From the NCBI RefSeq assembly GCF_030551255.1, contig NZ_CP130630.1, positions 6,305,501 to 6,369,500 on the forward strand: DNA of 64,000 nt, given 5' to 3'. Below the pieces are notes generated by a model. That model was not told where the DNA came from, ran no database searches, and worked only from the letters and a program-made list of their open reading frames with translations. Below are positions 42,156 to 45,364 of this stretch, piece after piece. Position numbers and translations under genes: made by a program. The DNA comes from Streptomyces sp. NL15-2K (GTDB lineage Bacteria; Actinomycetota; Actinomycetes; Streptomycetales; Streptomycetaceae). The first letter of the stretch is position 1. The number at the start of each line of letters is the position of its first letter.

Positions 42156-42227
42156 GGGTGGGGGCAGCTTAGGGGGTTGCTCGGGGTTTGGCTCAGGGGG
42201 TGGCTTCAGCGGGCGCCTGCTGATGAC

Positions 42228-43503
42228 GTGACCGTTGGCCACTCGCTTCTCGGCCAGTGTCGTGCTTCCGCGACCCGAGTAAAGGGCGCTCCGCGTCGCC
42301 TTCGGCGATCGGCCTACGGCCGACCCTTGACTCGGCTCGCTCCAGCACGGGTGAGAAGCGAGCGAGCGGCCCGGAGGAGAGCGGGGGGCCAGGTGGGTGG
42401 GCCCTTCGGGTCGGTTGGGGGGGGTGGGCCGGGGTTCGGGGGCGCGATCGCGCCTCGCCAGCACGCCGGGTGGGCTCAGCGGCGAACGGTGAGTGGGCGG
42501 CTGGTGGGGGCGCACCGGCCGGGCGGGGGCACGCCGGGCCGGCTTAGCGGCGTGCGGTGGGTGGGTGGTGGCGGTGCGCGCTGGCCGGGTGGGGTACGCC
42601 GGGTGGGCTTAGCGGCGTATGGCCGGTGGGCGGCTGGGGGGCGCGTCGGTTGGGTGGTGGCACGCCGGGCGGGCTCAGCGGATGGCGGCCGGTGGGTGGC
42701 TGTGGGGGGCACCTGCCAGGTGGGGGCACGCCGGGTCGGCTTGGCGACTGATGGCCGGTGGGTGAAGGGAGGCGCCAGCGAGTGGCGGTACGCCTGGGCG
42801 CGGCGATCGCGGCGATCGCGACGAGGGCTCAGCGGATGGCGGCCCAGTGGACGATGCGAGAGTGCGCACCAGCGGGACCGACTGACCCCTCCGGCCCGAC
42901 TCGGCGGCTACGACAGGTCGCACCGTCGGATATCTCGGGCACGGATCCAGTAATTGGCAGATCTGTTCCACCCCCACGGTCACCTGAGCTGGGGTTTTCC
43001 CTCGCAGGGGTGGAACAGATCTGCCAATTACTCCTCGAGCCACCCTCGCGGGCCGCCATCGGCTGGGCCGGCCCGGCGTGACGCCACCCGGCCGACGCGC
43101 CGCCAGCCGTCCACCGGCCGTACGCCGCTGAGCCCGCCCGGCGTGCCACCACCCAGCCGCCCACTCACCGTTCGCCGCTAAGCCGGCCCGGCGTGCCACC
43201 ACCCAGCCAGCGCGCACCGCTACCGCCCACTCACCGTTCGCCGCTGAGCCCACCCGGCGTGCTGGCGAGGCGCGATCGCGCCCCCGAATGCCGGCCCGCC
43301 CCTCAACCGACCCGAGGGCCCACCCACCTGGCCCCCCGCTCTCCTCCGGGCCGCTCGCTCGCTTCTCACCCGTGCTGGAGCGAGGCGAGTCAAGGGTGGC
43401 CCGAAGGGCCATCGGCGCAGCCGACGCGGAGCGACAGCGGAGCGCCCTTTACTCGGGTCGTGGAAGCACGACACTGGCCGAGAAGCGAGTGGCCAACGGT
43501 CAC
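42228..43503. repeat. Giant inverted repeat, ~1.28 kb, with internal tandem repeats
   Basis: Outer arms 42228-42294 and 43437-43503 match at 66 of 67 positions; a second pair (42324-42404 and 43316-43396) differs at about one base. Between them are short segments that differ in sequence but both fold into mini-hairpins. Further inward, ~66-bp units beginning cacgccgggYgggct recur at about 42462, 42529, 42596, 42661 and 42727 in the left arm, with about four in reverse orientation in the right arm (43065-43262). The centre is a perfect 26-bp stem (42949-42974 / 43007-43032) with a 32-nt spacer. No transposase and no protein-like frame. Confidence 0.9.
42949..43032. repeat. Central perfect 26-bp inverted repeat
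   Basis: Arms at 42949-42974 and 43007-43032 contain taattggcagatctgttcca and its exact complement. The spacer (42975-43006) is cacggtcacctgagctgggg plus a short T/C tract. It is AT-richer than the arms around it. Confidence 0.92.
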
Positions 43504-43835
43504 TTCGTGGCGTACGTGAGGGCCGGGGCGGCATGTGAGGCGAACTCTGCAGCGCCCCGGTCCTCAACGGTTCTCAACGGCCTCACCTGGCCGCTGACTT
43601 GGCGTTACGCCCCACGAACCCGGACCACCGCGTCGCGCGCTTCCGCTGCGTGCCGCCCTTCACTCGACGGAGTGAAGAACGTGAACTTCCGCCTGGGAAA
43701 CCCCGGTTCCGGCTTGCGTTCGTCGCTCTGTGTGCCCATAGGGTCACGCCAGCACAGAAACGCCCCCGCGGTGCGCCAACACCCGGGGGCTCGACACCAG
43801 GGGCGGCAGCCCCACCAGGAAGGCTGGCGCTCCCA
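43504..43835. other. Intergenic region between inverted repeat and HTH pseudogene
   Basis: About 330 bp. Apart from the hairpin at 43762-43790 I see no gene. The stretch 43600-43760 has no consistent GC3 pattern. Confidence 0.5.
43762..43790 (+). promoter_or_regulatory. Hairpin upstream of HTH gene, copy 1
   Basis: GCCCCC...GGGGGC outer stem, GGTG/CACC inner stem, loop cgccaa. It is 45 bp before the pseudogene's ATG. Its plan matches the hairpin at 58657-58693 before the related gene. Confidence 0.65.
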
Positions 43836-44560
43836 ATGCGCATTCATCGTACGACGCCCACGCGCTCCTCTTCCGTCTTCTCCAACGCTCTCCTCCGCGA
43901 CCGGAGCATCTCCTGGTGTGCGGTCGGCGTACTGACGTACCTATTGAGCCTCCCGAACGAGGCCCTCGTCACCATCCGCCCGCTCGCGGACCGGCGCAAG
44001 GAGGGGCGGGCCCGGATCGCCGCCGCCCTGCATGAGCTGGAGGAATCCCGGTATCTGCAGCGGGTTGTGCACAAGATCCGGAAGAGACGGGCCAACTCTT
44101 CACCGTCTACGAGGTGTTCGACACTCTGTACGAGGACGAGCCACCGACGGGTGATTCTCAAGAGGCCCGGAACCTGGCCTCCGGCGAGTCGGAGATCGCC
44201 TCGCCGGGCGATCTCCCTTCGGGAGAAATGACCGGGGAGCAGGGACCTCCCTCCGGCGCCGCCGAGGCGTTGCGGCTCGCGCCGCTGGTGGAGGAGTGGT
44301 GGGAGGCGGGCGCCGGCAGCGCCCAGATCCGGGCGGCCCTGACCGACGGGCTGCCGCGCCGCCTGTACTCGGCCGCCGCCATCGTCGAGAACCGTCTGCA
44401 ACGCAAGCGCCCTTCCGGGGCGGGGGCGCCCGAGCCGGTCACGACCGTCGAGGCCGAGCTCCGCAGGCCCGGCGCCGCCGCGTACCGCGAGGCCGCGTGG
44501 CGGGCGGCGGGTGGCGGGATCGCCCGTGCGCTGCCGAGGGGGCAGGCGGCGCCCGCGTAG
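43836..44560 (+). pseudogene. Frameshifted helix-turn-helix protein, relative of the gene at 58723
   Basis: Two frames together make one protein. The first (43836 to ~44080) encodes SNALLRDRSISWCAVGVLTYLLSLPNEALVTIRPLADRRKEGRARIAAALHELEESRYLQRVV, a winged helix-turn-helix. The second (~44078-44560) continues as EETGQLFTVYEVFDTLYEDEPP and ends with PLVEEWWEAGAGSAQIRAALTDGLPRRLYSAAAIVENRL. The join is near 44070-44085, where a single-base loss would account for the shift. The C-terminal segment parallels LAAEWLSRGATPNDITRALTDGLPPDV in the intact gene at 58723. This family is common in streptomycetes; role unknown. A sequencing error is possible. Confidence 0.7.
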
Positions 44561-44666
44561 GCCCGCCCGTGATGACCCGCGAAGACTCCCGGCCGCACAC
44601 CCGTGTCGTCGGGTCAACCCAACCGAGAGGAACGCGATGACCGCATTGCTCGAACGGGCCGAGACG

Positions 44667-44683
44667 GTATACCGCAGGTATAC
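44667..44683. promoter_or_regulatory. Operator overlapping -10 of toxin-antitoxin promoter
   Basis: GTATACC, gca, GGTATAC: a perfect 7-3-7 palindrome. The right half contributes to TATACT (44679-44684), 6 nt before the antitoxin ATG. A typical place for autorepression. Confidence 0.72.
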
Positions 44684-44690
44684 TGCCGTC

Positions 44691-44954
44691 ATGGCTGACA
44701 CCACCGTCAAGGTCGACCCCGCTGTCCGTGACCGCCTCATGGTGCTCGCCCGCGAGCGCGGCATGACCATGCGTGATCTGATCGCCGAGCTGGCCGGAGC
44801 CACGCCCACGCAGGAGGAGTTGCGGAAGCGGTACGAGGAGACCAAGGCGTACTGCGAGACGCACTTCGGTGTGACGCTCACGGACGAGGACCACGACAGG
44901 GTGGAGAAGGTCTGGCAGGACCTTGAGGCCGGTCGGCCCGTGGACAGCCTGTGA
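44691..44954 (+). CDS. Antitoxin-like ribbon-helix-helix/VapB-type protein
   Basis: An 87-aa protein: DTTVKVDPAVRDRLMVLARERGMTMRDLIAELAG is a ribbon-helix-helix-type N-terminus (beta strand plus two helices), followed by a helical C-terminal part with ETHFGVTLTDEDHDRVEKVW that would wrap a toxin. The ATG at 44691 is preferred because a TATACT -10 and palindrome end just before it (leaderless). An in-frame ATG at 44637 with GAGAGG upstream would add 18 residues and place the operator inside the gene. It overlaps the toxin gene by GTGA. Confidence 0.78.
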   Translation: MADTTVKVDPAVRDRLMVLARERGMTMRDLIAELAGATPTQEELRKRYEETKAYCETHFGVTLTDEDHDRVEKVWQDLEAGRPVDSL

Positions 44955-45364
44955 GTGCGGCACGGCCGGGGTCGACCGGCGTCGTGTTCGACGAGTCCGC
45001 CCTGCTGGCTCTGGGGTCGGGGAACTCGCTCGCCTCGCAGTTCGTCGCGAACACCGAGCACGGGCCGACACGGCACGTCTACGTTCCCGCGCTCTGTCTG
45101 GCGGCCGCGGACGGTATGCGTAAGGGCCTCGCAGAGCACGTGGGCGCTCTGCCCGCCGTCGAGATCGTCGAGCTGGACTTCGCGGGTGCGTCCACGGTGG
45201 GCGCCTTGCTGCGCGACGGCGTGGAGTGGCGACTCGGCCACGCCATCCACCTGTCCCGGCCGACGGTCGACTGGCCGGACGGTCGGCACGTCGTGACCGT
45301 CGACCCGGACAGGTACGCCGACATGCCGCTCGTACGCACGATCAGGCTGCCTCACCAGCGCTGA
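44951..45364 (+). CDS. PIN-domain-like toxin of a type II system
   Basis: A 137-aa protein with a PIN-like start (GVVFDESALLALGSGN, first acidic residue) and later acidic positions in VEIVELDFAGASTVGALL and VVTVDPDRYADM. It partners the overlapping antitoxin gene (4 bp, GTGA). PIN toxins are RNases. The similarity is at motif level, and the usual four-acid set is only partly clear. A sequence-to-profile search would settle it. A hairpin terminator follows. Confidence 0.65.
   Translation: MSAARPGSTGVVFDESALLALGSGNSLASQFVANTEHGPTRHVYVPALCLAAADGMRKGLAEHVGALPAVEIVELDFAGASTVGALLRDGVEWRLGHAIHLSRPTVDWPDGRHVVTVDPDRYADMPLVRTIRLPHQR

Follow-up and report, generated by a model that had tools for sequence, protein, structure and literature searches.

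A Streptomyces family of large non-coding inverted-pair repeats with a conserved outer hairpin: candidate mobile elements of foldback/REPIN-like type

Introduction

REPINs are inverted doublets of REP palindromes that are moved by RAYT transposases, and the REP unit of REPIN/RAYT systems is short, measuring a few tens of nucleotides. Foldback elements of the FB/TU type consist of long inverted repeats with tandem repeats inside; they are non-coding and occur in many copies. Integron attC sites carry a core site. The Frpo/ssi single-strand promoters (PMC11541004) are hairpins of conjugative plasmids.

Streptomyces sp. NL15-2K harbors a 1.28-kb protein-free inverted repeat at positions 42228-43503 of the window, i.e., the whole 64,000-nt stretch of DNA that was analysed. 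Each arm begins with an imperfect hairpin, termed P, behind which tandem ~65-bp repeats, termed R, point inward. The features shared with REPINs are a palindromic unit present in inverted doublets, the occurrence of lone units, copying of the doublet as a whole, and placement behind genes. The differences lie in P, which spans ~140-160 nt rather than the short length of a REP unit, and in the whole unit, which reaches ~0.7-3 kb with R arrays. Like foldback elements and MITEs, the repeat is non-coding and multicopy, with long inverted repeats that hold tandem repeats; in contrast to them, no target duplication was recognised in the units read, and the outer arm forms a conserved hairpin of its own. 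A likeness to integron attC was considered and rejected, since only an inverted order brings the ends into agreement with the core site, and ends of the type seen in genome G006 do not fit. No description of the repeat family was found in the titles and abstract openings of the papers listed in searches of open-access literature. These large non-coding inverted-pair repeats of Streptomyces apparently form an undescribed and unnamed family.

Architecture of the window element

Arm alignments and inspection of the open reading frames (ORFs) confirmed an inverted repeat that encodes no protein; none of the long ORFs crossing it has the look of a gene. Its parts are as follows, where A1 is an alignment and R1 a covariance model of the outer hairpin.

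42228..43503, no strand: whole element, an inverted pair of half-elements (arm complementarity; like architecture elsewhere)
42228..42236, + strand: left outer end, GTGACCGTT ahead of the hairpin (read directly; similar ends in other copies)
42237..42374, + strand: left P arm, imperfect hairpin with a branched head (alignment A1; R1 match of 164.5 bits)
42461..42749, + strand: left R array, five motif copies at spacings of 68, 65, 66 and 66
42949..43032, no strand: central perfect 26-bp stem with a 32-nt loop, a separate dispersed repeat nested in the element
43058..43262, - strand: right R array, four motif copies at spacings of 65, 50 and 66
43346..43494, - strand: right P arm, inverted, with a loop region 11 nt longer (alignment A1; R1 match of 153.4 bits)
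43495..43503, - strand: right outer end, inverted copy of GTGACCGTT (read directly; similar ends in other copies)

The complementarity of the arms is 97% over 70 nt (42225-42294 with 43437-43506), 87% over 138 nt (42287-42424 with 43296-43433) and 90% over 93 nt (42421-42513 with 43210-43302), and a single gapped alignment of arm against arm gives 84.1% over 491 columns. The preliminary description had the arms matching almost base for base at the outside, which therefore holds for the outermost ~70 nt and not further in. Other inverted pairs of at least 40 nt in the window, as represented by the 5 of 17 that were listed, are 40-43 nt long, 70-79% complementary and 11-52 kb apart.

The ~66-bp tandem units were found in opposite orientation on the two sides, as first described, and the R motif is absent from the remaining 62,000 bases of the window. 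In every listed two-armed element that bears R, the motif is plus-oriented in the left half and minus-oriented in the right half. Its spacing across lineages is mostly 62-68 bp, with 77 bp in G026 and 92-101 bp in G092. The motif was not found in the tested elements of G006, G158, G078 and G071, some of which have other repeats. We also note that the spacings cluster at 63-67 bp in most lineages and at 93-95 bp in G092, about six and nine helical turns, perhaps by chance.

The halves of the central stem (42949-42974 and 43007-43032) are complementary at every base around the 32-nt loop. The stem is as perfect as originally stated, but it belongs to a separate dispersed repeat of the genome. 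This central hairpin repeat (~90 bp with an oriented loop; window 42946-43036) has at least 29 further sites outside the elements in the same genome, 28 of them in the chromosome's central half, and the hairpin is present in all 20 sites that were fetched (L029-L048). A perfect central stem occurs in 3 of 27 element centres examined, all three from the window's genome; imperfect or partial copies are present there in L021, L022 and L024 as well. In L021 (3954-5042), an IS110-type transposase gene is situated between the arms and flanked on both sides by parts of the central hairpin. Outside the element, two small adjacent genes at window positions 44511-45364 appear toxin-antitoxin-like by eye.

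Copies and distribution

A DNA search of the window's genome revealed further loci with one or both arms. R1 gave 20 matches there, comprising 14 arms and 6 weaker opposite-strand readings; the latter are the same places on the other strand, because P is nearly palindromic. Five inward-facing arm pairs, including the window element, are present. R1 matched in 34 of 150 Streptomyces genomes and a broader model, R2, in 54 of 150 at E<=1e-6. Units per genome range from none found to ~20, with wide differences between species. The P counts per genome are lower bounds, with 20 candidates scored per genome in the 150-genome searches, 10 in the phylum-wide search with R2 and 150 in the others, among them those of the window's genome and G006. 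The refuting case named at the outset, a single copy with no relatives in other genomes, therefore does not apply.

R2 matched in two of 296 phylum-wide genomes, both Streptomyces (one of 198 genera). Searching a species-level collection for an exact arm pattern gave 103 stretches, and the 80 listed are all titled Streptomyces. A pattern of the P head was found in 5 of 396 phylum genomes, namely four Streptomyces and G174 of another genus, and in one stretch of a viral collection; its reversed control gave no match among the rows listed. At the sensitivity of these searches the full unit looks confined to Streptomyces, and the head is older or shared.

Fold and covariation of the outer hairpin

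The length of P is mostly ~140-160 nt and its head contains two or three small hairpins. Folded as DNA, the left arm has a z of -4.63, with none of 200 shuffles equally stable, and the right arm a z of -2.86, with 1 of 200. In A4, an alignment that broadly samples 36 arms, 95.9% of the cells are paired, and 23 of the 36 modelled pairs are altered on both sides with pairing preserved. The double-changed cells number 199, whereas shuffles average 71.3, with none of 500 reaching the observed value, and slid controls give 44 or fewer; the shuffles ignore relatedness, and the structures are favoured over their slid versions by having been derived from the same alignments that were tested. The count of further pair types was not above shuffles (152/500). 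Alignment A3, which mixes both strands, was excluded from the counts. The inner stem carries CCCTTGAC (TTGAC) on its 3' side, conserved in 37 of 38 and 36 of 36 arms opposite a variable pairing partner.

A single-arm P site near a TPR/SEC-C gene recurs in 11 genomes, at a distance of <=330 nt in 8 and ~0.6-2.7 kb in 3. In 7 of these genomes no other P was found at E<=1e-6. Here, 9 of 52 pairs are altered on both sides with pairing preserved, and the double-changed cells amount to 16 compared with a shuffle mean of 4.2 (0 of 500 shuffles as high); further pair types were again not above shuffles (86/500). Gene conversion is unlikely at this site, because in most of the genomes no second P was found. 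The alignments, this orthologous site included, provide strong evidence that the folded shape of P is under selection, and the active maintenance envisaged earlier gains support for the outer hairpin. Two relatives were read at this position. The P of G073 is truncated, and G085 has a short hairpin-forming sequence in place of P, so that neither offers a clean empty site. The TPR/SEC-C gene was rejected as a mobiliser, as it is present without an intact P nearby in some genomes and its profiles suggest no nuclease.

Pair geometry and proposed movement of whole units

In 16 genomes, 169 arms yielded 68 neighbouring pairs less than 3.2 kb apart, of which 67 face inward, none outward and one in tandem, i.e., the inverted-doublet arrangement of REPINs; 34 arms are unpaired. 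The genomes and arms were chosen by hand, some contigs lie outside the set, and where an arm was also matched weakly on the opposite strand, that second match was discarded. The median inverted-pair unit in these genomes is 1,350 bp, and 20 inward pairs were counted in G006.

Comparison of entire units from distant loci gives identities of 97.4% over 1,529 bp (L088/L094) and 95.3% over 1,559 bp (L141/L145). In G078, units L197-L200 are 91.0-95.5% alike over 1.04-1.07 kb, L199/L200 reaching 95.5% over 1,057 bp, compared with 82.8-88.5% between the two arms of one unit. Arm-to-arm gene conversion as the sole cause of symmetry does not fit these four units; L195 of the same genome, whose arms are 95.3% alike, fits it better. 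On average, P arms are 93.7% identical when they belong to one element (28 comparisons), 91.2% when they come from different elements of a genome (309) and 83.1% when they come from different genomes (1,616). Taken together, the likeness of whole units and the pattern of arm identity fit a lineage-wise spread of whole units.

Target duplications, which had been suggested as a check, were not recognised in four G078 and five G158 units, with G-/C-rich flanks and ragged ends, or at L088/L094 and L141/L145. Comparison of the window flanks with 41 genomes gave no element-free joined flanks among the matches listed. Five interior ORFs were scanned, with an IS110-type transposase in L021, a Mutator/IS256-type transposase in L100, a DUF6086 match in L025, and no Pfam match in L080 and L096; the copies read have no interior gene in common.

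We consider it somewhat probable that these repeats are a Streptomyces family of non-autonomous, protein-free, foldback/REPIN-like mobile elements with a selected hairpin. A fold-back mobile element is the best of the options raised in the preliminary description, because there are many copies per genome, the arms face inward and the copies are alike as whole units. The 97.4% unit identity, the pair geometry, the covariation of P and the placement behind stop codons are the observed parts of this explanation, and we infer movement from the copies. The mobile unit would comprise two inward-facing P arms, R repeats behind them in many lineages, and a variable centre. An enzyme acting in trans would recognise the P hairpins, perhaps extruded from single-stranded DNA, and copy the unit. 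Copies would persist mainly downstream of genes and in convergent intergenic regions, where a strong hairpin is little harmful, and the P hairpins may terminate transcription from both sides. Single arms would be remnants or retained hairpins.

Several observations run against mobility. Some sites are old and common to several species, the sites read show neither a recognisable target duplication nor a clean empty site, and the interiors read lack a shared gene. The arms of L195 resemble each other more than L195 resembles other copies. Among 53 P arms, the nearest relative is the arm's own partner in 18 cases, another arm of the genome in 28 and an arm of another genome in 7. The counts of further pair types, at shuffle level in both covariation tests, point the same way.

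Chromosomal sites and a possible host role

The gene settings of 63 loci are convergent in 33, tandem in 27, divergent in 2 and unclear in 1, and a gene 3' end lies on at least one side at 60 of the 63, often 6-100 nt away. The 63 include orthologues, with L082, L027, L140-L159 and L189 onward excluded; their genes were called from a crude codon-position score, and the settings are given as raw counts. In 17 genomes chosen by hand, 66 of 71 loci fall in the central half of the chromosome. Sites with both flanks common to different species are L070/L074, L072/L079 and L077/L103.

The Pfam families of the 85 nearest genes are varied, with no transposase among the first 25 of 98 families listed. 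DUF397 occurs in 5 of the 85 nearest proteins and HATPase_c_2 in 7; a link to DUF397/XRE genes was dropped as a rule, these being frequent neighbours only. In G125, a paralogous XRE/HATPase-type cluster, ~83% alike over 1.7 kb (L102:309-2011 and L100:4738-6444), adjoins two different elements and ends a few bases away from them. L091 and L096 have neighbour genes common to two species, with one gene inverted across the element as if both had flipped jointly.

The strongest rival to mobility is a host role, which may be compatible with it. P would be a structured 3' element held by selection, such as a two-way terminator, an RNA-stabilising hairpin or a DNA landmark, and rare spread would occur by recombination. 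The main support comes from the single-arm site of 11 genomes with its covariation, where P is mostly the sole one found; the gene 3' ends at 60 of 63 loci and the central position of 66 of the 71 chosen loci agree with it. Near-identical whole units at distant loci and a copy number from none found to ~20 units speak against it, as does the missing P of the relative G085 at the site of the 11 genomes, and placement behind genes is equally expected of a harmless repeat. In G497, which is outside the 71 loci, the genome measures 7.8 Mb and copies lie at ~1.0 and ~7.6 Mb. As an account of the whole family, we judge the resident host element rather unlikely.

Related hairpins on plasmids

Eight plasmids gave matches to the window element; six belong to Pseudonocardia and two to Streptomyces. 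A related P region is present in eight Pseudonocardia plasmids, all typed mobilizable; a mobF gene is in the stretch in two of the three viewed, and in L352 an IS256-type gene lies directly downstream of P. Seven P-head sites were read, from three of the eight Pseudonocardia plasmids, a Glutamicibacter plasmid, a Mycobacterium plasmid (one of its four matching places), G174 and the viral contig. In all seven, the conserved TTGAC faces a same-strand gene start ~60-240 nt on, and the gene downstream of the head in G174 has an ArdC N-terminal domain. A further site on a Streptomyces plasmid (L357), outside the seven, lies between convergent genes like the chromosomal copies. The DNA fold of the head region is clearly beyond chance in L351 (0 of 200 shuffles as stable), weakly so in the viral contig (5 of 200), and not beyond chance in G174 (12 of 200).

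The P head recalls the Frpo/ssi hairpins (PMC11541004) in that all 7 sites read have it ahead of a gene start on its own strand, once of ArdC type, and in the conserved TTGAC. In contrast to them, P in Streptomyces chromosomes points into non-coding R, and no -10 box was recognised by eye. P might correspond, in actinobacteria, to the single-strand promoter/primer hairpins that conjugative plasmids carry. On plasmids it would start the first genes as long as the DNA is in single-stranded form; in Streptomyces it would have become a chromosomal repeat that uses single-stranded DNA, during replication or conjugal chromosome transfer, for inward synthesis and is copied without an encoded protein. 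We offer this tentatively, as an unlikely proposal.

Other explanations

The working product of the element could be a very large structured RNA or a pair of convergent RNAs begun at P. The covariation of P is RNA-like in pattern, and the conservation of TTGAC beside a varying pairing partner would suit such a product. On the other hand, an Rfam scan of the 64-kb window gave 0 families at the gathering score, and the unit is nearly symmetric with an unequal R copy number on its two sides; this explanation is improbable.

The linear plasmid of Streptomyces sp. NBC_00663 has a half-element ~550 bp from each end, in the order tip, R, P, interior. Fusion of two such tip-R-P ends, the joined telomeres of a linear replicon, would produce the order P-R-centre-R-P. 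This is one plasmid, however, and the location of its half-elements in an 82.6% identical terminal repeat explains the arrangement equally well; the window centre is, by eye, unlike the plasmid tip. Joined telomeres are accordingly a very improbable origin. We also note that the end of the linear plasmid NZ_CP109028 (L349:1-170) carries a string of small palindromes, telomere-like by eye.

An assembly artefact or an isolated recent duplication-inversion, the latter put forward in the preliminary description and suggested by the near-perfect outermost arms, is refuted for the family and extremely improbable for the window's copy, because like architecture recurs at other loci of the genome and in many species.

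Significance

The repeats would constitute a sizeable family in the main antibiotic-producing genus, and are candidate strong two-way terminators and sites of genome variation. They also provide a testable tie between a chromosomal repeat and the hairpins of actinobacterial plasmids.
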